The notes under the pieces: generated by a model
What the model saw: only the letters and a program-made list of their open reading frames with translations
What the model was told of the DNA's origin: nothing
Databases searched by the model: none
Position numbers and translations under genes: made by a program
Source: Adineta ricciae
Lineage: Eukaryota > Rotifera > Eurotatoria > Adinetida > Adinetidae
Assembly: GCA_905250025.1 (NCBI GenBank)
Contig: CAJNOJ010000182.1
Span: 1-64,000, forward strand
Direction: 5' to 3'
DNA: 64,000 bases
In this document: piece after piece, positions 5,426 to 64,000 of the stretch
How positions within the stretch are numbered: the first letter of the stretch is position 1
How the letters are laid out: every line of letters begins with the position of its first letter

Positions 5426-7416
5426 TTAAAATCGCCGATAGTTATTGTTATTGTTATTTCCCCATTCATCAAGTTGATCCATTTGTGTGTCAACGGAGCC
5501 AAGTAAAGCTTTGGCAACGTAATCTCCAAATGAAAATGGAAAATTCGGTCCACGTGTGCGACGAATTTCTTCTCGTTCACTCTTATAATCATCAACAACA
5601 TCTACATTCATCATATTACGATCCCATTGTGATAAATAGGATACGCTGGATTCGTCATCGGTACACGCAAGAAATGTTACATAGGTTGTGTTTGCTTGAC
5701 GTTCATTGCGCATCAAATTTTCTAAACTTTGTATGTCAACATTACCATTGGCATCGGTTGGTGCGCCATCAGTTGCAACGAAGACAAGTAGACGCTTGTC
5801 ACTACCAGGTTTGCTTGCTGCTGATTGAAATATACGGCGTAGAGCTGATGTCAGCGGTGTTAGACCACTGGGGCGTTCACTGAAAGATTCAATAACTTGT
5901 CGAGTATCGGTTACGTTCAGCATAGGTCGACGGTTGAGAAAGTGAACATCGACACCATTCGAATCGAATACAGTACCGATTTCAATAACGATTTGTACAA
6001 TAGATCGTAGTTCATCCCATCGTGTGCCGTTCGTTCCGTCAACTGGCGTATTCATAGAACCGGAATCGTCACAAAGAACGACAATTTCGAATTGTTGAAG
6101 AATATTCAGTCGCTGAGCCAGTTGATCACCGATTTCATATCGACCTGCTATCGCACGAAGACGTTCATTCACTAAATAATTTCAATTGGTATTTTACGTC
6201 TTATTTTTCAATGACTTCTATAGAATAAAGCTTACTTTGTCCTGGTCCTCCATATGAATTAGCATTATATCCCGGACCTACACATAAAAATCGTATTCGT
6301 ATAAGATACACTACAGCTAATCAGAAATAACCACTAGCCTTGTGGTGGATAAGCATTATAGGGACTTTGATATGGTTGTTGTTGTTGTTGTTGCTGTTGG
6401 TTATAAGGTGAATAGCCTCCATAACCGCCTATTACACAATCAAGCGTGAGTTAGATAGAGCATTAGTTTACAATCCATGTCTTTCGAGTGCAAGCAGAAT
6501 CGAATCTACTAGCAGGAGAAAGATGGTTTACCTTGATTTTGTTGTGGGTTAGCATTATATGGACTTTGATATGGTGGTGGTGGTGGTGGTTGTTGTTGTT
6601 GTTGTGGAGGATAGCCACCTACAAATGATCATTATTTATAGGAGAAACGTTAATAAATTGTGGTTTACCTTGTTGAGGACCGTATGGATTTTGATAATTA
6701 GAATTACCTAAAGAAGTACTTAGGTTTTCTTTCACTTGATATTTTATTTTTGTTACCTTGCTGAGGAAGATAGGGATTCGATGGTCGATAGGGATTCTGA
6801 TTGTTCGGAAAACCTACAAAATATTTAAAAGCATTATTTTCAATTATATAAATCAATTATTACCTTGCTGTGGTGGATAGGAGTTTGATGGGCCATATGG
6901 ATTTTGATAGCCGCTATTACCTAGAATAAATTGCATTTAGATAGAAGTTCTTTTTCAAACATTGAACGAACTTGGTGGTGGCTGATTATTACCAGGGAAT
7001 CCAGATGGTTGATTAGAATTCGAATATGGATTCGATTGAGGCGGATACGGTCCTTGTTGATAACCACCACCTCCTGAAAGAAATAAAACAGATATTGAAC
7101 ATTTATCTAATGATAACTAATTTGGCTAGCCTTGCTGAGGCGGTGGTTGTTGTCCAACTTGTGGAAGAGAGTAAGACGAAAAATTGCCTTGTTTCGGTGG
7201 TTGATTATTTGATCCATAAGGATTGTTATAAGGTGGCAATGATGCCTGAGGACCTGATGGGTACGGTGGTTGTTGATTTGATGGTTGTGCCATCATACTG
7301 GAGAATCCAATAGGTTGTGATCCACCTGTATTTCCTAACGCCGAAGGATTTGATGACGATGGTGGTTGTGGTGGTGCTGATGGTTGTGGATTGCCTTGAC
7401 CAATATTTGGATACAT
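5426..7416 (-). CDS. VWA-domain protein with Pro/Gln/Tyr-rich N-terminus (9 exons)
   Basis: Exons 7131-7416, 6972-7073, 6864-6920, 6757-6813, 6669-6707, 6532-6618, 6339-6428, 6236-6277 and 5426-6171 join to a 501-aa protein. All eight introns are phase 1. Residues 1-253 are low-complexity P/Q/Y/N/G-rich, built from mini-exons encoding variants of GYQNPYGPSNSYPPQQ. The last exon encodes a VWA domain with a MIDAS-type metal site (DDSGSM, about 288-293) and a later TDGAPTD segment. Two introns (7074-7130 and 6278-6338) begin with GC, both in the context AAG|GCTAG. No signal peptide, so probably cytosolic. Function is unknown; a prion-like or phase-separating N-terminus with a protein-binding VWA is an inference. 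Confidence 0.8.
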
Positions 7417-7915: not shown

Positions 7916-8597
7916 TTAATCATCATCATCACTATTATCTTGAACACTTGCCATCAGATCATCTTGTAAGACATTCCATCTGACTGGTGTTGTGGCTGTT
8001 GTTGTTGTTGATTCAATCTACAAACAGATACACTCTTAATATGTTCTGCTCACAAAAGCACATTCTCTTTTACCTTCGATGGATTCTTCTTCATTATTTT
8101 GCATGAAACCTCATCCGAATCAATTGTCTTAAGCATATCAAGAAACTCTCCTTTGTTGATCGTCGTGTCTTTTTTCTCTTTCTTTGACGATGAACGATGC
8201 TGTTGTTGCTGTTGTTTTCGAACAGTGTTGAACAACTGAACAATACCACGTGTCGCAACTCGTTGTAAAGCCTTTTCGAAATCTCGACCACGTGTTATAT
8301 CAAATGATTCGTAATTCATTGCGTCCCATTCGCGTCGCTAGAAAAAAAGAAAGTTAAGTATCGACTTGTTCGCAACATTTTCACATAGTTTACTCGACGT
8401 TTTTTCGTTCGTTCGCTAAATGTTGGTTTGGGTTCCCTGTCCTGTATTTGATCAGCTTTCTTTTCCTTCTTTTTTGGATCTACTCGTTCGACAATTTGAC
8501 CACTTTCGCCAACGATTTCGAAGACATTTTTCGGTAAAGTCTTCTTGGGCTGTTTCTTCTTTTTCTTTATTTTCAACGACTCTCCTTCGAGTTTCAT
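7916..8597 (-). CDS. RRP15: RRP15-like ribosomal RNA processing protein (3 exons)
   Basis: Exons 8394-8597, 8074-8337 and 7916-8017, introns of 56 nt each, 189 aa. The N-terminus is lysine-rich, as expected for a nucleolar protein. The signature lies at residues 89-108: EKALQRVATRGIVQLFNTVR, close to the conserved block of RRP15 that precedes the 'FLDML' segment. The C-terminus (WNVLQDDLM, then an acidic DDDD tail) also matches the family. RRP15 acts in 60S pre-rRNA processing. The protein is shorter than the human form (about 280 aa). TTTTCAG directly abuts the ATG, and only 113 nt separate it from the MsrB stop upstream, leaving little room for a promoter. Confidence 0.88.
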
Positions 8598-8710
8598 CTG
8601 AAAAGAAAAATTGATCGAAACTGAGCATTTTATATATAGGACATTTTCCGCAAAGAAAGAGAATGAGAAGAAGAAAAAAAAGAACATTCGTTGAACGGAT
8701 TTAAAAAGCA

Positions 8711-9203
8711 CTAGTTTTTCTTTTGAAATTTCAATGAAGCCGAGTTAACGCAATGACGCTGTTGAACTAATTTGCCATTACTATCGCGCAGACCTTCACC
8801 TTCGAATACATGACCTAAATGTCCATCGCAATTGCCACAGAGAATTTCTTCTCGATGACCATCGGCATCTTTTTGTCGTCGAACTGCTGTGCCTAATGAC
8901 GAACTAAATGCTGGCCATCCACAATGTGAATTGAATTTGGACGATGAACTAATCATTGGTATATCAGAATGAGAATAGACATAAATCTCTATCGACTTAC
9001 TCGTAAAGATCTTGACCACAGCCAGAACATTTGTAAACGCCTTCTTCGAAATGTTTGTCATATGCACCGGTTCCCGGATACTCGGTGTCTTTTTTTCGTA
9101 GTATACGATATTGTTCAGGCGTTAGTTTAGCTTTCCATTCTGCATCGGTCAGATTCATCGGAGGTAATTGTTGCTGTTGTCTATCGTTTGAGGATGCAGA
9201 CAT
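8711..9203 (-). CDS. MSRB: Peptide-methionine (R)-S-oxide reductase MsrB (2 exons)
   Basis: Exons 9001-9203 and 8711-8948 with a 52-nt intron give 146 aa. LTPEQYRILRKKDTEYPGTG (28-47) and GWPAF are hallmark MsrB segments. Zinc cysteines are C59/C62 and C105/C108, and the catalytic cysteine is C134 in RHCVNSASL. The enzyme reduces methionine-R-sulfoxide in proteins, usually with thioredoxin. No convincing targeting peptide, so probably cytosolic. An acceptor-like TTTTTCAG lies 7 nt before the ATG. The gene lies 90 nt downstream of the TMEM254-like gene and 113 nt upstream of RRP15, all on the minus strand. Catalytically complete as far as can be seen. Confidence 0.93.
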
Positions 9204-9293
9204 GCTTTATCTGAAAAAGATTATTTGATTAGATGAAAATATGGAATTACAAAAATCACGAGTCAATTAGGCGTACGAAATGCAGAATTACAA

Positions 9294-9635
9294 TCAACGT
9301 TGTCGAACATATCCTTTGAGTATCATCAATGAAGGAAAACCTAGAATGAATGTTTGTATCATCCATAAGAAAGTCGATTGTTGGTCAAGACGAAGTTGTT
9401 GACAAATTCGACGAGCAACAACTGCTTCATAGATATGAGCAATCACCGTTGACCAAAATACAACGACAAAAAGAGTACGATAGGTTACAATCAACGAAGA
9501 GAGGAAACTACCGAGACCTCCTAAACTGTGCAAAGGTAACAGCGATGGAAGATGCGCTAAAAGAAACACAATGGTAATTCCACTACCAATAATGATCCAC
9601 CAAAGGAGATGAGGCGATTGAAAACGATTAGCCAT
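9294..9635 (-). CDS. TMEM254-like membrane protein, copy a
   Basis: 113-aa intronless gene. Three hydrophobic segments (about 11-32, 45-66, 87-105) and the motif pattern TLFVVVFWSTVIAHIYEA followed by FILGFPSLMIL match TMEM254/DUF4499, a small eukaryotic family of unknown function. The ATG at 9635 directly follows ATTTCAG. It is a tandem paralogue of the gene at 9780-10136, 144 nt away in the same orientation. The two copies have diverged strongly and share mainly the topology and the bulky aromatic/His positions. Probably an endomembrane protein. Confidence 0.8.
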   Translation of the reverse strand: MANRFQSPHLLWWIIIGSGITIVFLLAHLPSLLPLHSLGGLGSFLSSLIVTYRTLFVVVFWSTVIAHIYEAVVARRICQQLRLDQQSTFLWMIQTFILGFPSLMILKGYVRQR

Positions 9636-9779
9636 CTGAAATGATCAAGTGAGAGACATTAAACAATAGCTTTATAATTTGTTCGAATATAGACGTTAGT
9701 TTGAATATGAATAGAGTTAATTGGGTAGAGAAATAAATTAATTAATAAGGAAATCTTTCGGAAAAGTTTTATTTACCAT

Positions 9780-10136
9780 TTACGCTGATTTGCGTTTTTC
9801 AGCTTCGTATCGTCTCAGTTTACCTAACGAAGGATAACCTAATAGTAGAGTTTGTCGACACCATCGCCAGGTATTCTCCGAGTCAATATTTAAACGTTTA
9901 CATATGCGCCAGGCTATTGTCGCTTCGAACACATGTAGAAACACTGAGACCCAAAATATCCATACAAGTAGAGTGTGATGATTGTATGCTAGATACTTGA
10001 GGAATGTACCTAGGAAACCCAGTGCATCGTAGGATACAATATGTCGCCAAAATGTTAAGATAGTTAAGACCAGAAGACCACCGTCACAAGGTATGTACCA
10101 TAATGGATTCGCCGACTGATAGAAATGATCGGTCAT
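9780..10136 (-). CDS. TMEM254-like membrane protein, copy b
   Basis: 118 aa, intronless. NHHTLLVWIFWVSVFLHVFE is close to the HHHTLL...W...H.GE block of TMEM254. The later QTLLLGYPSL corresponds to the family's QTF..G..SL. This copy is nearer to the vertebrate protein than copy a. The ATG at 10136 directly follows TTCTTTCAG. It lies 161 nt downstream of the eIF4E2 stop. Molecular role is unknown in the family. The basic C-terminus (RRYEAEKRKSA) resembles the lysine-rich tails that retain proteins in the ER, but this is only suggestive. Confidence 0.85.
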   Translation of the reverse strand: MTDHFYQSANPLWYIPCDGGLLVLTILTFWRHIVSYDALGFLGTFLKYLAYNHHTLLVWIFWVSVFLHVFEATIAWRICKRLNIDSENTWRWCRQTLLLGYPSLGKLRRYEAEKRKSA

Positions 10137-10297
10137 CTGAAAGAATAGTTTTTACAATGTTAATAACAAGACCAAAGATAACAGCTATAACTAGGAACAA
10201 GAGAAAACGAAAATAGCTGATAACAAAAACAATAACAACAAGAAGAAATATCAGCTGATATCTGTGTGTGTAGACATGCTCCTGCATAAGAGACTTT

Positions 10298-11141
10298 CTA
10301 TCGAACACGATCTGTATTTCGATAACTGCAATTATCACGTAATGAATCATTATGAGTTTTGTATTCCATCGGACCTGAAGAATACGAAATTAATCGTCGT
10401 TGAATTATTTATTGTCGAAACTTACAATCTTGTGGTAGATTAAGTACTTTCTTCATTGTTTCTTTAATTCTTTGTGTAACTGTTTGATTGTTTGCCGTTT
10501 TTGTCCAGATACTAATCAGATCTTCTTGTGGTCGAATCGAACAAACAATACCACAGATTTCCTTTCCGACACTAAATTGTTCACCGATAACAGCCAAAAC
10601 AAGTAATTCCCAGAGACGCGTTGATAGACCTTTCTTCAATCGTAAAATCCATTTTCCACCAAGACGATTGCCTTCTTCTTCCCACATTGGCTTGAGATTT
10701 TCTTTAAACAAGTGGACATCACTGAAATACGAGAAGACGACAAGTTCAATCGCAAATGATAATGATGATCCTACCTGTAGAGTGGAAGATCGGCTGGAAA
10801 CTTCATATGATCATAGTAGCACCAGAATTCTTCTATTGAACCAAATGTGCCTGTGTGAACAAGACGAAGTCATTCAAAAAAACAGCGTCAAAATCACGTT
10901 GCGAAAACAAACCGAGTTTTTTCAGACAAGAATCATAATTAACTGCACTATTGCGAAACGTCGTTGGTCGATGTGTGTACCAGAATGTCCAACGGCCTTC
11001 CAGTAAATGGAAAGGACTATCACTATTACTAATATTATTGACATCTTTTGTTGGTGAAGAGGTATTTTCCGTTTTATCTGTTGTCTCCAAGGCAATTTCT
11101 TCATCACTGGCAGCATTGTTTATGGAAGTAGTTGTTGTCAT
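10298..11141 (-). CDS. EIF4E2: eIF4E2/4EHP-like mRNA cap-binding protein (4 exons)
   Basis: Exons 10913-11141, 10775-10850, 10426-10721 and 10298-10374 with introns of 62, 53 and 51 nt encode 225 aa. A Ser/Thr-rich leader (1-42) precedes the eIF4E fold. Family blocks include RWTFWYTHRP, LFKENLKPMWE, GGKWILRLKKG, IGEQFSVGKEICG and ISIWTKTANNQ. Tyr69 and Trp115 occupy the positions of 4EHP Tyr78/Trp124; a Tyr rather than Trp at the first site marks class II eIF4E (4EHP). Such proteins bind the m7G cap but repress translation because they bind eIF4G poorly. It is the most upstream member of the five-gene minus-strand cluster. An acceptor-like CTACAG lies 29 nt before the ATG. Confidence 0.93.
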
Positions 11142-11485
11142 TGTTTTTGTTACAAAAAATTAGAGTTCAACTGTAGAGTAGAAGCAAATTAAAATGAAAC
11201 GGTGGAAGATGAAGCAATAGGGATAAAATTCAAACGTTTACAATTGGTGAACTGCTTTCAACCATTTACAAAGAAGGAGGTTTTATCGTATTATTTCTCA
11301 CACGACATCTGTTGAGTAAACGAATGTTTTTTCTCTGTATAATTTATTGAAGATTCTGAAAATGAACAAAAACAAGTGTTAAAGAAAAAGCTTTGTTGTG
11401 ATTAAAATAAGTATTAAATGAGCAAAACGATAACTCAAATAAAATTAAAGCATAAAATGTACGTATATGAATAAAGTAAAGAGGA
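11142..11485. other. Intergenic region
   Basis: Between the start of eIF4E2 and the end of Ser/Thr-rich gene A (both minus). It should contain the promoter of the eIF4E2 cluster. No clear TATA was seen. Confidence 0.5.
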
Positions 11486-14250
11486 TTAATAACCGTAGAG
11501 TTCAACTTCACTATATGAAACGTAAGGACTGCTTGCTCTCTTGGTAACAACGGTAAAGCGATAACCAGGAAGTGCCTTCGGTGACGAGATATATACAAAA
11601 TTACCAAACGAAGAACGATTTGAAATGCTTGCTACACCTGCCGTACCAGAATAGAGAGGTGTCCAACTACTGCAATTCAATGCACTGACACAATCAGTTC
11701 CTTCTACTATAACGTACGACGGATCGGCGCTAGCTATCACACCGGGAGCAAATCGAAATTTGCTCAGCGTCGTCTGACAGCGAGTAATAGTAAAAAAGAA
11801 ACCTGTGTTCAAACCAGCATCGCTGTCTGATCCTGTATCATTGTAACCACCCCGGCTTGAATAGCTGGTATTGAAGTTTTTATCGAATAATTTATCAGCT
11901 CCCTGACCCGTTACGTATGTTCCAATACCCGATGCAGCTTCTGTAGCAAGCGAGCTCGTTCCACCTATTTCTGTTCCCCACAGAGGTTCTAATGATCCTG
12001 GTTTGAGCGTTAGCAGCACCGATGAATCTACACGAAACGGACAATCAAACTCTTCTGTTTCCTCTCTCTCCGCAATATATCACTTACTTGCTGATCCATT
12101 TGCTGCAGTTCCTGTGTAATTTGTATATCCAAATAGTTGAACTTCACTGTAACTAACAAGATTACTTGCACCTCGCTTACTTGTTATCAAAAAGCGGTAG
12201 CTACTGTAAATAGCCGTGTTGGAGACCGGTTGATATTCCCCGTACGTTGCACTTGCAGCTCGCAAATCGAGACCCGATGATCCATTATATAGTGATGTCC
12301 AGTTAGCACAAGACGAAAGAGTATCACAACTAGTTCCTTCAATGGTGATAGTCAGCGGATCGCTCTGTGTAGTGTCGTTAGCACAGGCAAACCGAAATCC
12401 GATGAGTACAGGTTGACATTGTGATACAGTGACATAGAAGCCGGTATGGACACCAGCGACAGTATCATTGCTGGTAGAATTGCCATAACTACTGAATTCC
12501 GATGTGAGATTGCCGTCAAACAGATTACTAACTGGGTTGGTCGAAGGATAAGTACCAGCAGATGAACCTTGCGTTGCCAACGTACTGACTCCTCCCATGA
12601 ATGTATTCCACAAGGGCTGGGCCGTGTCCGGTAAAACATCCAATTGCGTTGGCAAAACTAAACACGACTACAGATAGGGAAAGTATATACATTTTTCAAA
12701 AACTCACCAATGGTTGTGGTTGTCGTAGTACTTGTGCTCGATGTTGACGATGAGGTTGATGACGTCGACGTTGACGAAGTGGACGATGATGATGTGGATG
12801 TGGACGTTGTCGAAGTGGAACTAGTTGACGTGGAGCTGGTGCTACTGCTCGTGCTCGACGTAGAAGTCGAGCTGGTCGATGTTGATGTGGTACTTGTGCT
12901 GGACGTTGATGTTGACGAAGTTGATGTCGAACTTGTAGTTGATGTGGAAGTGGACGAGCTGGATGTGGAAGTGGATGTGGTTGAGGTAGAGCTTGATGTG
13001 CTTGATGACGAGCTGGTACTTGTACTGGACGTCGATGTTGACGAAGTTGAAGTTGATGAAGTCGATGTCGAACTAGTGCTACTGCTGGTGCTTGACGTAG
13101 AAGTCGAACTGGTGGATGTTGACGTCGACGAAGTTGAAGTTGATGAAGTCGATGTCGAACTAGTGCTACTGCTAGTGCTCGACGTAGAAGTCGAACTGGT
13201 GGATGTTGATGTCGACGAAGTTGAAGTTGATGAAGTCGATGTCGAGCTGGTACTTGACGTAGAACTGGAGGAGCTGGATGATGAAGTGGACGTGGTTGAG
13301 GTAGAGCTTGAACTGGTGGACGTCGAGCTAGTACTTGTACTGGATGTTGACGTGGTTGCAGTTGATGTAGTGCTCGTAGTTGTGGTTGAAGTTGTCGAAC
13401 TGGTCGAAGAGGTGGACGTGGTTGAAGTAGAACTTGTGCTAGTTGATGTCGAACTGGTGCTGGTGCTGGAGGTCGACGTGGTCGCAGTTGATGTAGTGCT
13501 CGTAGTTGTGGTTGAAGTTGTTGAACTGGTCGAAGAGGTGGACGTGGTTGAAGTAGAACTTGTGCTAGTTGATGTCGAACTAGTGCTGGTGCTGGAGGTC
13601 GACGTCGTTGCCGTTGTTGAGGTGGTACTAGTGCTGGTGGTCGACGTAGAAGTTGAAGTAGTCGAAGTTGTCGAAGTTGTCGAGGTAGTACTAGTGCTGG
13701 TGGTCGACGTAGAAGTTGAAGTAGTTGACGTTGTCGAAGTTGTCGAGGTAGTACTAGTGCTTGTGCTGGATGTGGACGTCGACGATGTTGAGCTGGTGGA
13801 GCTCGTTGAAGTGCTGGTGGTGCTGGTGCTGGATGTGGATGTTGATGAAGTTGATGATGTCGACGTGGTGGAAGTACTAGTAGTGCTTGTGCTGGACGTC
13901 GATGTTGTTGACGTACTGCTGGTACTTGAGGTGGATGTGGATGTAGTTGCAGTTGTGGTCGTCGCAGTAGTTGTGGTAGACGTGGTGCTGGTAGTTGTTG
14001 TTGAAGTAGTATAGTGATCGTGACTTACGAGGATTGGCACTAAGAGTGTAATCGTAAATACAACCATACCAAATACACCGACGAGACCCAGGAGTACTTT
14101 TGCTCGTCGACTCCTAATATAAAGAAAAACAAGAATAGATCCAGGCATGATTACTAGTACTCACCATCCTGCATGAGTTACTGGGACCAAATGATTTGGA
14201 CTGACCGATGGATTCATTGGAGCAAGATTGATTTCTTCAGCACCTGGCAT
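11486..14250 (-). CDS. Ser/Thr-rich type II membrane protein with two F5/8C-like domains (gene A)
   Basis: Exons 14165-14250, 12708-14113, 12088-12657 and 11486-12027 (introns 51, 50, 60 nt) encode 867 aa. Residues 1-34 are cytosolic and end in WSRRAKV. Residues 35-58 are one membrane span with no signal peptide. Residues 63-497 are an almost pure S/T stalk, likely heavily O-glycosylated. Two exons then encode two copies of a ~180-190-aa domain with discoidin (F5/8 type C)-like features: an LFDG segment near the start and SYRF...VSYSEVQLFGY at the end. The family usually binds glycans or lipids at the cell surface. An acceptor-like TTTGCAG lies 20 nt before the ATG. The domain assignment is by pattern and is less certain than the topology. 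Paralogues follow at 16-19 kb and 20.5-23.5 kb. Confidence 0.8.
12720..14030 (-). repeat. Degenerate Ser/Thr codon repeat array of gene A
   Basis: About 1.3 kb of imperfect trinucleotide-type repeats (ACN, AGY, TCN codons) encoding the stalk. A longer duplicated block is visible at about 13335-13470 and 13470-13605. The periodicity is looser than in the related arrays at 17.5-18.9 kb and 20.6-22.0 kb. Confidence 0.85.
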
Positions 14251-16036
14251 AAATATATACGCAGTATTGTCTGCAAAGAAATACAGACATAATATTGTGT
14301 TTTCCTCTTCTTCTCAAAAACAAAAGAGCGGTATCTCAGAAACGACAAGAAGCAATTCTCTTTACCATCATTCACTTAAAATCTTTTTTTTTCTCTCTCT
14401 CTCTCTCAGAAGAATAAATAATTATGTTCAGATGATAAACGAGTTTCTTTTGTCGCTAGGAGAAAAAGTTTCACAAGTATGTTTTCGTTGCTAACTGAAT
14501 TAACCGACGTAACTTCTGATATGAGAGGACGTACCTTTCAGTGAATTGTTTTTCTCTTTTCCAACTCACACGTCAGCATATTACATCTATAGAAGAAGAA
14601 AGAACATTTGAAAATATCATAATTTACTAAGTGTGTTATTTGCTTGTCCTAGTCGTTCATCTAAATAAATGGAAAAGTGTTTGAAGGAAAGTATTCTACG
14701 TTAGAAGGTGTTGATAAGCACTTTATTCAAAATAAAGCTTTCGCTTATATTTACTAAAACATTATCAAAGCAAATCTCATCTACTTTAATTATATCCGTT
14801 AGAAATTATGAAAAAATGATGTTTTGTCGTTGTTCTTAATAAGAAACAATCGAAGTCCACAGACAACTAACCATCTCGTTTAACAAGAGGACTACTGCTA
14901 ATTGGAAGGTAGAGCACCTAATATACTGAAATAGAATATTTCCACATCGATGTGTCTCTTCTTTCTCTGTCTCTTTTCAAACATTTTTCCTGTTTACAAA
15001 AAAAACAAAAGTCGTTGCTAAAAAACATTCTCTCAAATGAATTCATACGAATAAAAATAATTTGTTGTCAACGTAAAACCTTTGCGACGTCGTACTGCTA
15101 AATTTGTCTGAAAGAGACGCATGAAATCCTCACGGCTTTACATCAAACAAGATAGGAATGACAGGAGTTTCTGTAGAACGCGTTTTCTTAATTAAAACAA
15201 TAATAACAGCAGACGGAGTTTTCCAAGAATGGTAAAACTACACTATCTTTTCCAATTATTTCACAGTTATCAATTTAAGAACACCGATATGAAGAATATC
15301 ATCTAATTGCTATACAACTAACGAATTCATCGTAACTCGTTCTAGTTTCTTCTATCTACTCCAAGATGATTAGTGCCATTGCAGAAAATTGATAATGAAA
15401 AGTGTTTCCTTCAAACACATTTGTTTAATTGAAATAGAAGCTCGTTTCTAACGATATTTTCTTGAAAAAAAAAACATTGTAAAAATGAAACTTCGCAATA
15501 TCTATAATTATAGATGTGTTTTTTCTTTTTTCTTCTAAAAGAAAAATAATCATCGCAGAAAGACAAACGGAACTCTTCCTCTCTTTTTGTGTCAGTCCAT
15601 ATCAAAGGAAGTAGCTATTGCACGTCAAAGTCGCATATTAGTTTTTATGTTACACTCCCGTCTCGTTCGGTTTGTCTGACAACTCACATTGTCTTTTATG
15701 AATCCATTCACTAAGAATAAAAAGAGAAAAAACTATCCTTTAAAAACATAATGATATCTTATAATATTAGTTAATTGTAATTATTTCTTTGTAACATGTA
15801 AAGTTGATTTATCACATTCATCTTGATGATATATGATGATGTATGACTGCTTTTCTTCAAGTTTATTAAGAATTAAGAAAACAAGTGTTCGAGTAGGCAA
15901 TGCAGTGAGAATAAATGGTCAGGAAGCGAAACAAAAAAGCTTGAAATGTTTATGTATAAGATTAGGATTTAAAAAACATTTTTTTATAACTATTCATCAT
16001 AGTTATCGAATTGCTAATTCAAAAGGATAAAAACCA
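14251..16036. other. Intergenic region
   Basis: 1.8 kb AT-rich stretch between gene A and gene B of the Ser/Thr-rich family. It contains a (CT)n tract at about 14391-14408. Short ORFs here are lysine/phenylalanine-rich and look random. No RNA gene or transposon was recognised. Confidence 0.5.
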
Positions 16037-18930
16037 TTAATAACCGTAAAGATCAACTTCACTATATGATACATAAGGACTGCTGCCCTTTTTACCCATA
16101 ATAGTGAAACGATAACTTGGGTACGCATGGGGCGAAGATATGATTTGCCAATCACCGTATGTACTACGGTTGGCAATAGATAATAATCCAGTCGGACCAT
16201 CATATATGAGTGCCCAGTCGGTACAGTTCAATGCAGTAGTACAACTCGTTCCTTCTACAGTGACGTTAGTCGGATCGGCAGAGGCACCCGCTATACCCGT
16301 AGCAAATCGAAATTTGCTCAGTGTTGTTTGACAACGTGCAATGGTGAAAAAGAAACCCGTGTTCAGACCAGCATACTTATTCGATGCGTTTGAATAACCA
16401 CGACTTGTATATCTCGAGGTAGTATCGCCGTCAAATAACTTGTCCGGCCCTTGATTATTGCTATATACTCCCACACCCGATGAACCTTGGGTTGCGAGTA
16501 AACTTGGTTGGTTTAGTGTCGAATTCCATAAAGCTTCTATTGATCCTGACTTGATTGTTAGCGGTACCGACGAATCTACACACAACAGATACTCCAATTC
16601 TTCACTTTTTTTTCTCTCCAAAATCTATCACTTACTTGCTGATCCACTCGATGAACTTCCTGTGTAATTCGTGTATCCAAACAGTTGCACTTCACTGTAA
16701 CTCACAAGACTGCTTTTGCCACGCTTATTTGTTACCAAAAAGCGATAGCTATCAAAAGTCGCCATATTGGAAATGGCTTGATATTCACCGTACATTGGAC
16801 TTGCGGTTCGCGAACTGAGACCCGACGGTCCCCTGTATAGCTGTGTCCAATTGGTACACGTTGATAGATCATCACAATTAGTTCCTTCAATAGTGATGTC
16901 AATTGGATCACGTTGTATACTGTTATTAGCACAGCCAAACCGAAATCCGATGAGCACCGCATTACACTGTGCAACAGTAGCATGAAATCCTGTATTGAGG
17001 CCAGCAATAGAATCAGAGACACTGGAATTACCACGGCTGCTGAATCGACTTGACAGACTATCGTCGAAGAGGTTAGCAACTGGTTCAGAACTAACATAAG
17101 TGCCGACGCCAGTGCCAGCCGCCGCCACAGTACTAATTCCATTAGCAGATGTATTCCATAAAGACTCTGCGGTATCCACCACAACATCCAATTCCGTTGG
17201 TAAGGCTAGAACACAAAGCAAAACTTATATACATCAAACACTAACACTGCATCCAAACTCCATTTCGCGCCAGTTTCTATTCTATTTTTCTACGACGCGC
17301 CTCAGCATTATCAACATTTTGCAGATGCTATTTTCTCCCCGCAGATTTCTTATAAACCATACCTATATTCTCTACAAGCCTTTTGCATTTACAAAAGGTT
17401 TCCCCACACGCTCTCCCGGAAAACATACAGCGACTGGCACTCAGCATATTAGCCTACTTTTCCTTATTACACATTTATCCTTCCCAATTCGAACAATCTA
17501 CATAGGTGCACCAAACACTGATCACTTATCATGCATTACCAGTAGTGGTACTACTTGTTGACGATGTGCTACTCGAACTGCTCGTTGTGTCTGTGGTGCT
17601 GGTTGAGGTACTCGTACTCGAAGTACTGGTAGTGTCCGTAGTGCTAGTCGAAGTGCTGGTAGTTGATGAGCTAGTTGTGTCAGTGGTACTAGTTGAGGTG
17701 CTGGTACTCGAAGTACTCGTAGTATCGCTAGTGCTAGTGGATGTACTGGTACTTGATGTGCTAGTGGTATCGGTAGTGCTAGTCGAAGTACTGCTACTTG
17801 ATGTGCTAGTTGTGTCAGTGGTGCTAGTTGAGGTACTTGTGCTTGAAGTACTGGTGGTATCGGTAGTGCTAGTGGATGTACTGCTACTGGATGTGCTAGT
17901 TGTGTCAGTGGTGCTAGTTGAGGTACTTGTACTTGAAGTACTGGTGGTATCGGTAGTGCTAGTGGATGTACTGGTACTCGAAGTACTAGTTGTGTCAGTG
18001 GTGCTAGTTGAGGTACTTGTACTTGATGTGCTAGTCGTGTCTGTAGTGCTAGTTGAGGTACTAGTACTCGAAGTACTGGTGGTATCGGTAGTGCTAGTGG
18101 ATGTACTGCTACTGGATGTGCTAGTTGTGTCAGTGGTGCTAGTTGAGGTACTTGTACTTGAAGTACTGGTGGTATCGGTAGTGCTAGTGGATGTACTTGT
18201 ACTCGAAGTACTAGTTGTGTCAGTGGTACTAGTTGAGGTACTTGTGCTTGAAGTGCTGGTAGTATCAGTAGTGCTAGTTGAGGTACTTGTGCTTGAAGTA
18301 CTAGTGGTATCGGTAGTACTAGTGGATGTACTTGTACTCGAAGTACTGGTAGTATCAGTAGTACTAGTTGAGGTACTTGTACTTGATGTGCTAGTCGTGT
18401 CAGTGGTGCTAGTTGAGGTACTTGTGCTTGAAGTACTAGTGGTATCGGTAGTGCTAGTGGATGTACTGGTACTTGATGTGCTAGTGGTATCTGTAGTACT
18501 AGTCGAAGTACTGGTACTTGATGTGCTAGTTGTGTCTGTGGTGCTAGTTGAGGTACTTGTACTCGAAGTACTGGTGGTATCGGTAGTGCTAGTGGATGTA
18601 CTGGTACTCGAAGTACTAGTTGTGTCAGTGGTACTAGTTGAGGTGCTGGTACTCGAAGTACTGGTTGTGGCAGTGGTGCTGGTTGAGGTACTGGTACTCG
18701 AAGTGCTAGTGGTGTCTGTAGTACTAGTCGAAGTACTGCTACTGGATGAGCTAGTTGTGTCTGTCGTACTAGTCGTAGTGCTACTGCTAGAGGTGCTCGT
18801 AGTATCGGTAGTGCTAGTGGTTGTACTCGTACTCGAAGTAGTAGTAGTGTCGGTGGTACTAGTAGAAGTGGTGCTACTGGATGTACTAGTGGTACCTGTA
18901 GTGGATGTTGATGTACTGGTGGTGGATGTA
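16037..18930 (-). CDS. Ser/Thr-rich F5/8C-like paralogue, N-terminal exons not found (gene B)
   Basis: Three exons can be supported: 17540-18930 (S/T stalk, about 463 codons), 16636-17205 (domain 1) and 16037-16575 (domain 2). Domain 1 has the same 570-nt length as in gene A, and the intron between the domains is 60 nt in both genes, showing recent common descent. The intron before domain 1 is 334 nt instead of 50. The stalk is made of a 15-residue unit (TDTTSTSSTSTSTST). Upstream of 18930 there is a possible acceptor (CCTCAG), but no exon with the SRRAKV membrane anchor was found before gene C. The gene is therefore 5'-truncated, has a distant first exon, or is the 3' part of a larger gene including C. 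Confidence 0.65.
17550..18900 (-). repeat. 45-bp tandem repeat array (15-aa unit) in gene B
   Basis: About 29 copies of a 45-bp unit coding TDTTSTSSTSTSTST with synonymous drift. Blocks of two to four units are almost identical (for example around 17,860-18,200), pointing to recent unequal exchange or gene conversion. Confidence 0.9.
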
Positions 18931-20480
18931 CTGAGGACAGGCCGTGTATTACGTAGTCATATAGAGCAAGAATAGATACGGATCAATATATTCTTCAGAG
19001 GACATAGAAGTGATGATTGCTTAATATGTTGGCAATATGTTAACTTTTCTCTTGATAGCGTTAGTCAGTAAACCGCTTCGTAGAATAGAAGAGTTTCGAG
19101 TCGCTAGTGTTGAAGAAGCTATAATCCTGTGACTATGGTTGGATTGAGGTTTCTTGTTGCTCTAGTTGACAGAGACGCGTTTACTCTTGTATTTTGAACT
19201 AGTTTGCGTCCGCTCAAGGCAAATTGAACCATTGTGCTTTACTAAAACCTTCCACCTGGAACGGGGTCTTCTATTCTGCAAAGGGTTTTAGCAGATTTTC
19301 GAATGCAGAATAATTTGAGTGGATATGATTTCTGAGATTTTTGTGTGCATGCATACTGCTGTGTTGGAAGCCACAAAACAGAAGAGATCATATTCTTCTA
19401 CCGAATAAAGCAATACCGTAACAGCGCAGTGATGTGAACGGCAACACCATCGAGGGAAATCATTGACAGTAATGCACACATCACTCATGCTGGGTATTAT
19501 GCAATAGTCAAAAGATTTTTTACGGTGGTGAAGTGTACTGTGCTGTTTTCAACAGGTAAATGATGACTCATTTAACCTTGAATTGTGTCATTTGTCATCA
19601 TGAAAACGAAATAGGGCCCATATTATTTTTCAATAACCATGGTGGACTGAGTTACTGTTTATTACAACTAGTATCCAAAAATATTGATTTGTAAATTTTT
19701 TTCGATTTGCGAATAATTTATACACGGTATCAGGGGAGCTCGGAAGCCGTCGCTAAGCTTTCGAAATGATGAGTCAAAGTCTTAACGTCCGCCATAAAGT
19801 TCCTTTTTCCTCGAAAGTCAGATTATAGCGTTACAATGCGTTCAGCAATGTGAGAAGCAAAGAAGACGACATATAAAACACACAACCATACAACATGGTT
19901 GGTTCATTGAAATGTTCCCTGTCTATTAGCGCTTAATTGGTGATGCACTCTATTGGTTTGCAGTTCATTCCTAATGCAATCAGTGAATAATTGTGACAAT
20001 CAGAGATGCCGAGAAAACATGTTTCTCTTTCAACTGTTTCTCTCTTGATCAGAACGCCGAAACGAACCAATAGGATAAGAGGAAATATTTCTGTATAGAT
20101 AGCGCTACAGACATACGTCCACATACTAGAAGCTTGTGCACTGATAGAGTTCTATTACATGTGTCTCTAACAGCATTTGGTTAATATAAGATTTTTTCGC
20201 TCTATGAAATCATACGCGATTTTGAATCGTACTTACATGTTCGAGACAATCTCTGGCGATTGAACTGTTTTTCTTTTCCTAAGCAAGTGACATTTTTCAA
20301 TTTGATTTCATCGACACGTTCTCCGACAATTCCATCTGCCTATTGCTTTTTCTCATGTCACTTGCCGATATTATTACTAGCAGGCACGAAAAACTAAGCC
20401 CATGGAACACCGTGAAATATTTTGCCTAATTCTATAGAAGGTAAGCTGTCGAAAAAGATCTAAAGGCGCGCATCTATCGC
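18931..20480. other. Gene-free spacer between Ser/Thr-rich genes B and C
   Basis: About 1.55 kb. No match to the conserved first two exons of the family was found on either strand, and there is no convincing ORF, inverted repeat or RNA gene. Composition is more balanced than the other spacers. It could be an intron, an insertion, or the remnant of lost exons of gene B. Confidence 0.5.
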
Positions 20481-23458
20481 CTAGTGCACTGAGGTCTCAC
20501 AATAATGCTTATTCCTACCTAGAGAAACACTGACAGCCCCATGGAGATGAAACATGATTATGCAATATTTGGATAGAACGTTGCTAGTTTCTGTCGTCGA
20601 CGTTGAAGTGCTGCTACTCGACGTACTGGTTGTATCCGTAGTGCTCGTCGATGTGCTGCTGCTAGACGTGCTCGTCGTGTCAGTAGTCGACGTTGACGAA
20701 CTCGTACTAGATGTGCTAGTGGTGTCTGTTGTACTAGTTGATGTGCTTGTACTGGATGTGCTGGTCGTCGCTGTGGTGCTTGTTGACGTACTGGTGCTGC
20801 TTGTGCTAGTGGTGTCTGTTGTACTAGTTGATGTGCTTGTACTGGATGTGGTGGTCGTCGCCGTGGTACTTGTTGACGTGCTCGTGCTGCTTGTACTAGT
20901 GGTGTCTGTCGTACTAGTTGAAGTGCTAGTACTCGATGTGCTGGTCGTCGCCGTCGTGCTTGTCGAGGTGCTGGTACTGCTTGTGCTAGTGGTGTCTGTC
21001 GTACTAGTTGAAGTACTAGTACTGGATGTGCTGGTCGTCGCCGTGGTACTCGTTGACGTGCTGCTGCTGCTTGTGCTAGTGGTGTCTGTCGTACTAGTTG
21101 ATGTGCTTGTAGTGGATGTGCTCGTCGTCGCCGTGGAGCTTGTTGACGTGCTGGTGCTGCTTGTACTAGTGCTGTCTGTCGTACTAGTTGAAGTGCTTGT
21201 AGTGGATGTGCTCGTCGTCGCCGTGGTGCTTGTTGAGGTGCTGGTACTGCTCGTGCTAGTGGTGTCCGTCGTAGTAGTTGATGTGCTAGTACTGGATGTG
21301 CTGGTCGTCGCCGTGGTACTCGTCGAGGTGCTGGTACTGCTCGTGCTAGTGGTTACCGTCGTAGTAGTTGATGTGCTAGTACTGGATGTGCTGGTCGTCG
21401 CCGTGGTACTCGTCGAGGTGCTGGTACTGCTCGTGCTAGTGGTGTCCGTCGTAGTAGTTGAAGTGCTAGTACTGGATGTGGTCGTCGTCGCCGTGGTACT
21501 CGTCGAGGTGCTGGTACTGCTCGTGCTAGTGGTGTCCGTCGTACTAGTCGAAGTGCTAGTACTGGATGTGGTGGTCGTCGCCGTGGTACTCGTCGAGGTG
21601 CTGGTACTGCTTGTGCTAGTCGTCACCGTTGTAGTAGTTGATGTGCTGGTACTGGATGTGGTGGTCGTTGCCGTGGTGCTTGTTGACGTGCTGGTACTGC
21701 TCGTGCTAGTGGTTACCGTCGTAGTAGTTGAAGTGCTAGTACTGGATGTGGTGGTCGTCGCCGTGGTGCTTGATGACGTGCTGGTACTGCTCGTGCTAGT
21801 GGTTACCGTCGTACTAGTCGAAGTGCTAGTACTGGATGTGGTGGTCGTCGCCGTGGTACTTGTTGACGTGCTGGTGCTGCTTGTACTAGTGGTGTCTGTC
21901 GTACTAGTTGAAGTGCTAGTACTGGATGTGCTAATGGTGACCGTCGTAGCAGTTGATGTACTCGTCGTTGCCGTGGTGCTCGTCGACGTGCTGGTACTGG
22001 ATGTGCTGGCGGTGTCTGTCGTAGTAGTCGACGTGCTGGTACTGCTGGTCGTCGTTGTTCCAGCCGGAGTCGAAGTGGATGTTGATGTTGTACTGGTGGT
22101 AGTAGTTGCGCTGACAGTGGAAACCGATGTGGACGTAGTGGTGGTGGTAGTTGTTGTAGTCGTGGTCGATGCGGATGTTGACGTTGTACTGGTGGTTGTA
22201 GTGGCACTGACAGTGGAAACCGATGTTGATGTGGTGGTGGTAGTAGTTGTTGTAGTCGTAGTCGAGGCGGATGTTGATGTTGTACTCGTGGTTGTGGTGG
22301 CAGTGGCAGTGGAAACCGATGTTGATGTGGTGGTGGTGGTAGTTGTTGTAGTCGTGGTCGATGCGGATGTTGATGTTGTACTGGTGGTTGTCGTGGCACT
22401 GATGGTGGAAACCGATGTTGATGTGGTGGTGGTGGTAGTTGTTGTAGTCGTGGTCGATGCGGATGTTGATGTTGTACTCGTGGTTGTGGTGGCACTGATG
22501 GTGGAAACCGATGTGGAGGTAGTAGTGGTAGTAGTTGTTGCACTGACAGTGGAAACCGATGTGGAGGTAGTGGTGGTAGTAGTTGTTGCACTGACAGTGG
22601 AAACCGATGTGGAGGTAGTGGTGGTAGTAGTTGTTGCACTGACAGTGGAAACCGATGTGGAGGTAGTGGTGGTAGTAGTTGTTGCACTGACAGTGGAAAC
22701 CGATGTTGATGTGGTGGTGGTAGTAGTAGTCGCGCTGAGAGTGGAGACCGATGTGGATGTAGTGGTGGTGGTTGTTGTTGCAGTCGTAGTGGATGCGGAT
22801 GTTGATGTGGTCGAGGTCGAGGAGGTAGTGGTTTGTGTTGTTGCTGAAGTTGAACTTGTACTGGTGCTTGTTGTCGAAGTCGAGGAGGTAGAAGTGGATG
22901 TGGTGGCCGATGTTGATGTAGTAGTAACACTGGTTGTTGTAGTTTGTGTTGTTGCTGAAGTTGAACTTGTACTGGTGCTTGTTGTCGAAGTCGAGGAGGT
23001 AGAAGTGGATGTTGTGGCCGATGTTGTGGTAGCTGTAGTAGCAGTTGTAGTAGTTGCAGTTGTGACGGTGGTATATGTTGTGGTGGTTGTAGTTATGGTA
23101 GTAGATGCGGTAGCATTTACGAGAACAGATGCGGCTGTAAATATAAATTTGTTGATACAGTTATAGTTGAGAGGATTACTAGTAGTGTTTACTTGTGGTG
23201 GCTGTGTATTTATTACTTGTAACAAGAATTGGTACGAGGAGTGTCACTGTGAAGACACACATACCAATTACTGCACCAACGCCGGTTAAAACTTTAGCTC
23301 GTCTGCTCCTATGGGGAAAAAATTATGGGAAATAGATTAGAAAATGTCGCAGTAGGTATGCCGTTTTACCATCCATTGTGCATGACCGCGACCAATTGAT
23401 TCGAGCCTGCTTGAGGTTGATTCAAGGGTGCTAAGTTGATTTGTTCAGCGCCTGCCAT
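20481..23458 (-). CDS. Ser/Thr-rich type II membrane protein without F5/8C-like domains (gene C)
   Basis: Exons 23370-23458, 23193-23308 and 20481-23134 (introns 61 and 58 nt) encode 952 aa if exon 3 is read to its stop. The N-terminus (MAGAEQINLAPLN...GWSRRAKV, then a span at about 36-60) is clearly paralogous to gene A, with the first intron at the same position. About 850 residues of S/T-rich repeats follow. The C-terminus is a short non-repetitive tail (NVLSKYCIIMFHLHGA...) instead of the lectin-like domains. A good donor (CTAG|GTAGGA, about 20521) lies in that tail, so the mRNA may splice onward, possibly to gene B. Probably a mucin-like surface protein. An acceptor-like TTTCCCAG sits 14 nt before the ATG. 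Confidence 0.75.
20580..21960 (-). repeat. 90-bp higher-order repeat (two 15-aa units) in gene C
   Basis: A 90-bp period made of two 45-bp halves coding TATTSTSSTSTSTST and TDTTSTSSTSTSTST, with V or S sometimes replacing the D/A residue. Same 15-aa unit as in gene B, but organised as an alternating pair. Confidence 0.9.
22070..22800 (-). repeat. 48-bp and longer repeats in gene C, second array
   Basis: A different unit, TTTTTTTSTSVSTVSA (16 aa, 48 bp), repeated about five times at 22,530-22,740. A composite ~32-residue version with an STTSTSAST insert fills 22,090-22,530. The four central copies are identical or nearly so at DNA level. Confidence 0.88.
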
Positions 23459-40758: not shown

Positions 40759-41274
40759 ATGTCCTTTTCATTTAATACTCTTAACATAGCGATGGCTTTC
40801 ATCAACGAGAGGAATCAAACAAAAAACCTCATAGATCCAACTTCGACAATCGCACAGAAAACGATGGCGATGAATGCTCCGAACTCCCCATCTCAAATGA
40901 AACAAACCACAGAGAATATGACCACGTATATTCAACAAATGGCTAGTAACTATACAATAGTAATGAATTCCACAGTAAAACAAGCAACTACGAATCGAAA
41001 TCGAGTTCTCCTGTTCTTTATTACATCACTGCTCGTCATTTCGACATGTGTAGGTCTTAGTTACTGTATTCTGCTAGGTTGTACACATTATCTCAACGAA
41101 AACTTACCAATCGATGAAAATGTAATTGACTTCAAACGAACCTCTTTGGTTAGTTATGACTCAAATGCAAATACGTGCTCAATAGCGAATAGTAGACCAT
41201 CGATGTTAGCTAATTCGCAACGAAAACAATCGAAACGTTCATCGCCTGATTCACTTCGATTGTTTCTGTATTGA
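40759..41274 (+). CDS. Small single-pass membrane protein, unknown family
   Basis: 171 aa, intronless. One strong membrane span (about 83-107, VLLFFITSLLVISTCVGLSY) with no signal peptide. The N-terminal half has several N-x-S/T sites (NMT, NYT, NST). The C-terminal half is polar, with a basic Ser-rich end (QRKQSKRSSPDSLRL). CTGAACAG lies directly before the ATG and could be a splice acceptor. The stop codon is only 9 nt from the stop of the convergent Cys-rich gene, so their 3' UTRs must overlap. Length and composition support a real gene, but no homologue is recognised. Confidence 0.55.
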   Translation: MSFSFNTLNIAMAFINERNQTKNLIDPTSTIAQKTMAMNAPNSPSQMKQTTENMTTYIQQMASNYTIVMNSTVKQATTNRNRVLLFFITSLLVISTCVGLSYCILLGCTHYLNENLPIDENVIDFKRTSLVSYDSNANTCSIANSRPSMLANSQRKQSKRSSPDSLRLFLY

Positions 41275-61359: not shown

Positions 61360-64000
61360 TTAAGTTGAGAGTTCGCGAATGTTTGTTGATGGAACAGGCA
61401 GAGGTTGTGTTCGATATGTTGTTTGAGTTGTTGTTAAATTCGGTGACGTTGATTCGATGGAAGATGTGATAGGACTAAGTTGAGTGGATGATTTTTTCGG
61501 AGGTTGCGATTTCGATGTTTTCGCACTAGACTGAGTTGGTGTTGATGAAGATGAAGATGATGTTGAGAGGAGTGCGTCCTGTTCAATGGCACGGACAGTA
61601 GATGAATTAATTAACTGATCGATTTCACTGAGAAATTGTGTGAAAACTCCGATTGGTAAATGTAAACCATCGAACTGGAGCATTAGTTCTTCATTTAATT
61701 GACTGTACAATCGACTGGGTTTTGTCTGACATATTCGAAACAGTTTTATCAATCCATTTCCATTCATTAATTCACATATTGGCATCATATAATGAAGATT
61801 TGTGTCAAATAAAAAGTCTAAAACATCTTTTTGCGTCCATTGGTTCACCACTGTTATACGATAAGTCAGTTTTGTCATTTTACGTTTTGTATAAAAATCC
61901 GGTAGTTGTGGTTGTTCGATCGACTTAGTAACTACTACCGATGTTTCTTGTGATGCTTGATGAGGAACAGCTTTGCTTTGTTCATTGATTTGATTTCCAC
62001 GTTGCAAAGTGATTTCCTTCAAAATCAATTCGCATGCCTTTTTAAAATCCATTCGACCGAAATCTACATAGATTCGACTACCAATGATTAAACCCAGCCA
62101 TCCATCAGCACGATAACCTTGTCGAGCAATAATTGGTATCAGATTTCGTTTACATCGAAACGCGTATTCAGCTTCTGCTTGACAATAAACGCTACGTTTG
62201 TATGAATCGGACATACACAAAATAACAAATTCAGAGTTTTCAACTGCATCTGCCATGGCTTGCATCGCTAGAATGAGTAGGAACAAAAGTAATGAGAAGA
62301 AATCGTTCGAATGTAACTCACCTGGCCCGTAAATATTATCTCGGTCGACCCAAATTTTAAAACCTTGATCTGCTAAGAACTGATGAACTCGATAAACAAG
62401 TTCCTTATCAGCATGACAATATGAAATCATAATATCATATTGATAATCAACTTTTTTTGGTTGATCTTCTTTTTTGTCATCAGATTCAGTTATCTTCTTT
62501 TTAGTATTCGTTTTCTTTTCTCTTTCGGACTCTAAAATACAAGAAATGAATCTTATTTCGATTCTCATCGATTACCTTTGAAAAGATTCCAAAGAATCTT
62601 CTCTGCTGCTTTTCTAATTCCATCGCTTTCATCCTTCTGCATATCTTCAATCGATTTGATTACTTCTTCATCACCACGTAACATTCTTGCTGCCTCTTCA
62701 TCGAATGTGATTGAACCGAGCGACTCGAGTACTAATCTTTTCGAACGATCGTTCAACTGTTGACAATGGTTAACCAGTAAATGTAGAGCATTTTGTTTTA
62801 AAATCTCACTTTTTATTTGATCGTGTTGAACGAGTGCTGAAGAGAAACAAATATAAACTAACAATCCTACCTTTAAACTTCACTTTACCTTGAATTGCTT
62901 CCATAAGCAAGGCAATATTTCTATTAGTAGATTCCTCGTCATTATCCATTACGGAAATCGATTGAATTTTCTTTCGTAACGTATCAAGTATTTTCGTAAG
63001 TAAACGACCGGAAGCTTTCTCCGATGCCTTTATATCATCTTCTTCCAGTGTATAAGATAACATGACATAAGCATGTAAAACAATCGATTCATTGCTCACG
63101 AATGCTAATGAACGAAAGATGGAAGTTATTTTAAGTTGTTTTAGGTAAATTAGAAGGTCGGGTTCGTGAGCGAAGATTGTTAATGTCTGCAGAGCAGAAT
63201 GAATTAGTACTGTTTCGGGATTTGTGGACTTTTTGGAAATTTTTTCAATAAAAGTTAGTTCGGTAAGAATACGAATGATATGATCAATTAGCCATTTAAT
63301 TGGTTGACCGTTGGCATAAGGTGTATAGTATCCTCGGACATGTGTTACTGTTAATAGCAGATGATGAATTGCGTGGATCATCGATGACTTCCATTCTTTA
63401 ATCGATTGTATATGTTTATCTAATAATGATGCGTACCGTGGAATCATTGTCCCTAATAACTGATCGATGATATTCTTAGATTGTAAACCTGACAGAAATA
63501 CCGAAAGTTTAGAAACAAAGATAAAAATGTCAAGTTTTACCTCGATACGAAGTTAAAAATGATGGACACTGAATAAGGAAGAACTTCTGCTCTCTTGTCA
63601 TAGATTTGGCGTATGGTTTCAATTTTTTAAACACTCTTTCATAATTCGATGAAACTAAACAATTCATTGTTGCAATAAACAATCGGTAAAATTCATCTTT
63701 ATCTTCTGCGTTCGAAGGCAGTCGTTCATAATAAACACCAAACATATTCAACAGTCGTGCTAGTTGTTTAAACATTTGTTGATTCTGATGCTTTGAAAGT
63801 AGCTGATCAATGTTGCTCATACATGTCGCTACGGACTCCACAAAAGATGAATCGATTAGCCATGATGTTAACTTACTGACGTCAGGAATAATATTTACAA
63901 GATCTTTGAAAAGCAAGACACCATTTCGAACAAAATCGATCTCTTCTTCGCTTAATTGCATCAACGAATGCCAATCGTCGAGAATATCTCGAAGAAGGTC
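61360..64000 (-). CDS. ARM-repeat/TIR/SAM-like protein, 5' end outside the window
   Basis: Exons 63541-64000 (cut by the window edge), 62889-63488, 62576-62836, 62322-62531 and 61360-62267 give at least 812 residues. Introns are 52, 52, 44 and 54 nt. The first ~440 residues are helical, armadillo/HEAT-like (for example SKRLVLESLGSITFDEEAARML). After a Lys/Glu-rich linker comes a TIR domain: YDIMISYCHADKELVYRVHQ, GFKIWVDRDNIYGP, AVENSEFVILCMSDSYKRSV, YCQAEAEYAF (candidate catalytic Glu) and LIPIIARQGY. A SAM-like module (WTQKDVLDFLFDTNLHYMMP...) and a Ser/Thr-rich tail follow. SARM1 has ARM-SAM-SAM-TIR, so the order differs here. Probably an NAD-consuming or innate immune signalling protein. 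The 54-nt intron is in frame and stop-free, so ORF callers read through it. Confidence 0.85.

Follow-up and report, generated by a model that had tools for sequence, protein, structure and literature searches.

Nematodes, tunicates, flatworms, and chaetognaths are known to have operons that are resolved by spliced-leader (SL) trans-splicing (PMC2481426, PMC12582326, PMC12460157). Here, we describe a cluster of five genes in the bdelloid rotifer Adineta ricciae that is probably an operon of this kind. The cluster lies on the minus strand at positions 7916 to 11141 of a 64,000-nucleotide (nt) stretch of contig CAJNOJ010000182.1, hereafter called the window, and comprises, in gene order, eIF4E2, two TMEM254-like genes, MsrB, and RRP15. 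We put the probability that all five are transcribed together, as a unit resolved into single mRNAs by the SL, at about three in four.

SL addition in rotifers has been known since 2005 (Pouchkina-Stantcheva and Tunnacliffe 2005, as cited in PMC3795323 and PMC1925144). The leader is stated to be carried by more than half of bdelloid transcripts, and no leader is given as found in expressed sequence tags of the monogonont Brachionus (PMC1925144). The published bdelloid leader is the 23-mer GGCTTATTACAACTTACCAAGAG (consensus table in PMC3795323). The bdelloid work is cited for SL addition, whereas operons are tabulated as 'ND' for rotifers in a 2008 source (PMC2481426) and given as not reported in one of 2021 (PMC7986045). 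Among the literature matches listed, no title or abstract opening describes a nuclear rotifer operon; the primary paper of 2005 could contain an example.

The SL exon that we found in the A. ricciae genome is identical to the published one except for its first base, and the SL RNA of about 100 nt is of the size described for bdelloids. In its layout, the cluster resembles the chaetognath operons described for Paraspadella gotoi (PMC12460157) and Spadella (PMC2481426), which likewise consist of tandem genes spaced by less than 250 bp and of housekeeping-type content, and whose members carry an SL, with no operon-specific SL reported in these sources. The chaetognath operons are backed by SL-bearing RNA reads, whereas the rotifer cluster is known from genomic sequence alone, and chaetognaths have several SL forms, whereas a single form was searched for in the rotifer genome. 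The nematode SL1/SL2 and Ciona operons (PMC12582326) share with the cluster a downstream acceptor shortly behind the upstream gene; compared with the leaders of these systems, the search here covered one SL type, which was found.

Five genes in tandem separated by short gaps

The gene models of the cluster were set by hand, since the gene finder fuses its genes: it merged them into two chimeric genes by splicing across the gaps, and ended the last exon of eIF4E2 early. The first gene, at 10298 to 11141, encodes an eIF4E2/4EHP-like protein (Pfam IF4E, 5.2e-51). Its exons run on the minus strand from 11141 to 10913, 10850 to 10775, 10721 to 10426, and 10374 to 10298, with the stop at 10298; the first donor was set at 10912 by comparison with the copies on contigs C112, which carries the allele, and C4, which carries a diverged homeologue. 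It is followed on the same strand by two intronless TMEM254-like genes, TMEM254-1 (9780 to 10136, 118 amino acids, Pfam TMEM254, 2e-23) and TMEM254-2 (9294 to 9635, 113 amino acids, Pfam TMEM254, 3.7e-18), then by MsrB (8711 to 9203, 146 amino acids, a single intron of 52 nt, Pfam SelR, 3.1e-41), and finally by the ribosome-biogenesis gene RRP15 (7916 to 8597, 189 amino acids, two introns of 56 nt, Pfam Rrp15p, 6.2e-14). All five proteins exceed the Pfam cut-offs, and the six cis introns of the cluster measure 51 to 62 nt.

From each stop codon to the next ATG, the gaps between the coding regions are, in gene order, 161, 144, 90, and 113 nt, all of them below the intercistronic distance of 250 bp used for chaetognath operons (PMC12460157). 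Rebuilt models and Pfam matches thus agree with the preliminary description of this DNA, which had named five minus-strand genes in tandem with 90 to 161 nt between them. On the same strand, the nearest predicted neighbors are 344 nt upstream and 499 nt downstream of the cluster, and none of the remaining 11 tandem gaps that separate predicted genes of the window measures less than 325 nt. The downstream neighbor, which starts at 7416, has a TATA motif at -67, and a good acceptor near its ATG was not found. An Rfam scan of the window at gathering cut-offs gave no match.

Acceptors at the downstream start codons

A pyrimidine stretch and CAG precede each of the four downstream ATGs, as had been noted before, at distances of 0, 0, 7, and 0 nt for TMEM254-1, TMEM254-2, MsrB, and RRP15. 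These predicted SL acceptors lie on the minus strand at 10137 to 10150, 9636 to 9649, 9211 to 9224, and 8598 to 8611, with 14-column scores of 5.6, 4.3, 5.9, and 7.6, respectively, that of RRP15 being the highest. On a 16-column score they reach 4.6 to 7.9, compared to 1.3 to 7.7 for the six cis introns of the cluster. Of the 2670 ATGs on both strands of the window, the four cluster sites included, 69 have an acceptor scoring 4.29 or more within 0 to 7 nt, and of the 20 other predicted gene starts none does (Fisher p about 1e-4, a value that is only a guide because these starts were predicted ab initio and the acceptor matrix was trained on predicted introns with the cluster sites among them). 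When the distance was extended to 40 nt, 7 of these 20 starts had an acceptor that good. Upstream of eIF4E2, there is a possible acceptor, CTTCTACTCTACAG, at 11171 to 11184 on the minus strand, 29 nt before the ATG and with a score of 3.45; it is kept in the allele and was not seen in the homeologue.

The preliminary description had also argued that the gaps leave no room for a separate 5' exon. For three gaps, this is what we found: the donor scan gave nothing above 2.5 in the 161- and 113-nt gaps, and the best donor of the 90-nt gap, 73 nt upstream, scores 2.9, compared to 3.6 for the weakest cis donor of the cluster. The argument fails for the 144-nt gap, where a single, fair GTAAAT donor (score 5.1) lies 141 nt upstream in both alleles. 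The scan for donors and TATA motifs covered the gaps; a promoter or donor could lie in the interior of the upstream genes. Thus, every downstream open reading frame has an acceptor close before it, and one of the four gaps contains a fair donor. If the CAG sites are used, the 5' untranslated region (UTR) would have to come from elsewhere, and three of the gaps have no donor scoring above 3; an SL would be the least strained source.

The allele on C112 has all five genes at about 93% identity, with the four downstream acceptors at unchanged distances from their ATGs, and at the TMEM254-1 acceptor the final 20 nt are identical. On C4, eIF4E2, one TMEM254 gene, and MsrB follow each other in the order of the window, with gaps of 189 and 110 nt. 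The TMEM254 protein of C4 is 55% identical to gene 2 (over 114 amino acids) and 38% to gene 1, and its ATG abuts CTCTTTCAG, so that CAG and ATG meet at the same place as in TMEM254-2 of the window. The MsrB ATG of C4 is situated 14 nt behind TTTTAG. This MsrB copy (L052, 660320 to 659664, minus strand) has an extra N-terminal first exon (MLRRSLTILSQRLSFQLTKH...), which the window copy does not have. The encoded extension resembles a mitochondrial presequence, and a split of cytosolic and mitochondrial forms between the homeologues is possible.

Candidate spliced-leader RNA genes in the same genome

The leader was searched for in the 130-Mb assembly of 1033 contigs that contains the window. The exact published 23-mer occurs at no place in this assembly. 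Allowing up to three mismatches, 46 places were found, compared to none in a reversed control, and at 41 of them the sole difference is the first base, T for G. The genomic leader reads TGCTTATTACAACTTACCAAGAG and is followed by GTAA; at all 20 loci checked, GTAAA follows the exon. Ten loci align over 110 nt, and the consensus fold of these 10 sequences consists of a stem between donor and leader, a second stem, and a long 3' stem, with changes on both sides in 6 of the 30 predicted pairs. The stem between donor and leader is uninformative because its sequence is invariant. Thus, apart from the first-base variant at the 41 places, the exon, the GT donor, and the RNA length of about 100 nt are those of bdelloid SL RNAs, and the presence of dozens of candidate SL-RNA genes agrees with the earlier suggestion of trans-splicing as in bdelloids. 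The leader, taken with the pattern of allele and homeologue, likewise points to a bdelloid or a close relative.

The genomic leader starts with TGCTTATT, the published one with GGCTTATT; the first G of the latter may stem from the cap or be untemplated, or the species may differ here. Many of the SL-RNA genes are arranged head-to-head: in 14 pairs (on C6, C8, C43, C77, and C99; loci L004 to L022) the starts are 151 to 154 bp apart, and in three further pairs (two on C79, one on C146) 371 to 467 bp. Some SL-RNA genes are adjoined by genes for U2 small nuclear RNA (5 Rfam matches in 4 of 11 sources).

Acceptors abutting start codons elsewhere in the genome

In the assembly, YYYYTTTTCAGATG, which represents a strong acceptor with CAG directly followed by ATG, occurs 168 times and its ATH counterpart YYYYTTTTCAGATH 562 times, compared to 40 and 254 times for the reversed controls (Fisher p 0.0006). 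This genome-wide enrichment of ATG after strong acceptors agrees with trans-splicing. We inspected 44 of the 168 sites (24 plus 20), with start-codon calls made by eye. Eleven were judged to be start codons; counting L056 and L062 as copies of one locus, and L070 and L084 likewise, these represent nine independent loci. Of the 33 sites that were not counted, L055, L064, and L067 look cis-intronic, and the rest were ambiguous or without coding evidence. At all 11 start-type sites, the gene predicted upstream runs in the same direction (with weak scores for L087, 3.7, and L092, 5.9), and at none of them was a gene predicted on the opposite strand within about 1.3 to 1.5 kb upstream.

At five of the nine loci, the upstream gene ends close to the ATG. 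The distance is 66 nt at L094, where a short-chain dehydrogenase is followed by fumarylacetoacetase (Pfam adh_short and FAA_hydrolase_N); 83 and 88 nt at L070 and L084, with Rgp1, supported by Pfam, followed by a gene X (X marks any gene without a family assignment, a different one at each locus); 89 nt at L087, with Isochorismatase, also supported by Pfam, followed by X; 120 nt at L073, with IBR followed by IMP4 (Pfam IBR_1, below its cut-off, and Brix); and 161 nt at L079, with X followed by an EH-domain gene supported by Pfam. The names IMP4 and fumarylacetoacetase are ours, read from the sequences that gave the Brix and FAA matches. Among the matches listed, there is no second close copy of IMP4, and a second copy of fumarylacetoacetase is present on C194. 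The upstream gene is larger distances away at L056 and L062 (233 and 243 nt; Pfam DRMBL and AAA_33 partners at L056), L071 (313 nt; Xrn1 SH3-like and F-actin cap beta partners), L074 (652 nt; COPIIcoated_ERV supporting one partner), and L092 (792 nt). An upstream gene at most 165 nt away was thus found at 5/9 start-type loci and at 0/20 predicted window genes outside the cluster (Fisher p 0.001, in a comparison of two sets that were chosen differently and of which the window set is subject to the fusing bias of the gene finder).

A probable trans-spliced operon and its alternatives

Taken together, the acceptors, the SL-RNA genes, and the enrichment of ATG behind strong acceptors support the trans-splicing that the preliminary description had proposed, and the four downstream genes very likely receive the SL. 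The polycistronic transcription proposed with it fits the gap sizes, the other tight pairs, and the result that no opposite-strand gene was predicted close upstream of the 11 start-type sites, and is probable. From the genomic sequence we infer SL addition, co-transcription of the five genes, and a transcription start upstream of eIF4E2. RNA polymerase II would start there and read through all five genes, and the pre-mRNA would be cut between the genes, with 3' end formation coupled to SL trans-splicing. An SL exon of about 22 to 23 nt would be joined at the pyrimidine tract and CAG of each downstream gene, so that the leader end ...TTACCAAGAG would stand ahead of the first codons of TMEM254-1, TMEM254-2, MsrB, and RRP15. 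For TMEM254-1, TMEM254-2, and RRP15 the SL would be the entire 5' UTR, and for MsrB all but 7 nt of it. The leader end AAGAG would put a G at -3 of the ATGs that abut the acceptor, presumably a usable start context.

Several observations weigh against this model. Between the alleles, conservation of the acceptors is not clearly above that of the remaining sequence of the four gaps (75/80 versus 387/428, or 57/60 versus 323/358 for three gaps alone, counts that are given without a test statistic). RRP15 may have a promoter of its own, as TATATAAA lies in the gap between MsrB and RRP15 at 8629 to 8636 on the minus strand, 39 nt before the ATG, where the allele has TATATAAG. TATAAAGC is situated 41 nt before TMEM254-2 in the window and not in the allele; by a rough estimate, about one TATAWA is expected by chance in the four AT-rich gaps. 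A canonical AATAAA is present in one gap of four only, that between TMEM254-1 and TMEM254-2. In the SL-RNA fold, the second-stem changes of 4 of the 10 sequences are compensated at no more than one pair, and in L003, the copy that has diverged most, five of the six pairs of this stem are disrupted as aligned. The background set of single genes consists of gene-finder predictions in the window, and it is biased, because a finder that fuses tight tandem genes could hide further short gaps there. Among the 60 predicted introns outside the cluster, there are seven in-frame ATG placements at most 7 nt after the acceptor, and in two introns, one of 54 nt and the other of 196 nt in a gene scoring 0.3, the acceptor before such an ATG scores 4.29 or more. 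There are thus probably few hidden fusions of the kind seen in the cluster; other kinds are possible. On C4, neither RRP15 nor a second TMEM254 gene was found among the matches listed, and a GNAT-like gene beside the C4 cluster matches positions 2075 to 2761 of the window. Because the collinearity extends to this gene, the order of the genes on C4 lends little support to selection for an operon, and we rejected it as evidence for such selection, since plain collinearity may explain it. In the one genome searched, linkage is thus kept for all five genes in the allele and for eIF4E2, one TMEM254 gene, and MsrB in the homeologue, within a wider collinear region.

An SL acceptor is not by itself proof of an operon: four of the nine start-type loci sit 233 to 792 nt behind the upstream gene. 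SL addition need not mean co-transcription, and each gene of the cluster could have its own promoter, in the gap or in the upstream gene, and receive the leader separately on a short outron. The TATA motif that both alleles have some 39 nt ahead of the RRP15 start would fit this, as would the compactness of the genome, in which convergent neighbors in the window come as close as 9 nt. However, the outron would have to fit into 90 to 161 nt four times running, whereas no other tandem gap in the window is shorter than 325 nt, and a TATA at 39 nt leaves hardly any outron, which agrees poorly with SL addition. We therefore regard separate promoters as unlikely; four consecutive tight gaps, and the recurrence of this arrangement at other loci, favor co-transcription over four tiny promoters.

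Much less probable still are the explanations that dispense with trans-splicing. The genes might have short 5' UTRs and promoters of their own; the pyrimidine tracts would then be TCT/TOP-like initiators, and the CAG a matter of chance. For RRP15, this would suit its role in ribosome biogenesis and the TATA at -39, but the CAG that directly abuts the ATG in three of the four genes, the good acceptor scores of all of them, the presence of candidate SL-RNA genes in the genome, and an acceptor still at 0 nt in the diverged homeologue make it hard to sustain. We give equally little credence to ordinary cis-acceptors, served by 5' UTR exons that lie within the gaps or ahead of them, or by read-through splicing from the upstream gene. 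The GTAAAT donor in the 144-nt gap of both alleles, the splices by which the gene finder joined the genes, and the cis-intronic appearance of CAG-ATG sites such as L055, L064, and L067 all point in this direction; against it, the reading frames are separated by stop codons, and the donors in the other three gaps (at most 2.5 in two, 2.9 in the 90-nt gap) fall below the weakest cis donor of the cluster (3.6).

Other features of the window

The region from 12662 to 23243 is GC-rich and strongly skewed; open frames on its two strands are long and overlap, and the predicted proteins are repetitive and rich in Pro, Arg, and Leu; the predictions at 11486 to 14250 and 16037 to 19391 share similar terminal non-repeat domains. 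Two predicted genes meet tail-to-tail at 41274 and 41284, with 9 nt between their stop codons. At 61360 to 64000, on the minus strand, a protein is predicted whose translation reads as armadillo-like helices with a TIR-like stretch.

Implications

Systems of this kind are already known, and as a rotifer example the cluster appears to be new. Beyond the single locus, the data suggest, with somewhat less assurance than for the cluster itself, that bdelloids have polycistronic operons genome-wide that are resolved by the SL, with acceptors often abutting the ATG and the leader forming the whole 5' UTR. The first named members of this set would be the five-gene cluster and the pairs IBR-IMP4, Rgp1-X, dehydrogenase-fumarylacetoacetase, Isochorismatase-X, and X-EH. 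Since gene finders may fuse such genes, as happened here, published bdelloid annotations could contain chimeric models. Operons in rotifers would inform the question of whether the origin of SL trans-splicing is always followed by that of operons. Furthermore, because homeologous gene sets share one genome, bdelloids permit a test of how operons decay, for which the homeologue on C4, without two of the five genes and with CAG still abutting a start codon, would be an example.

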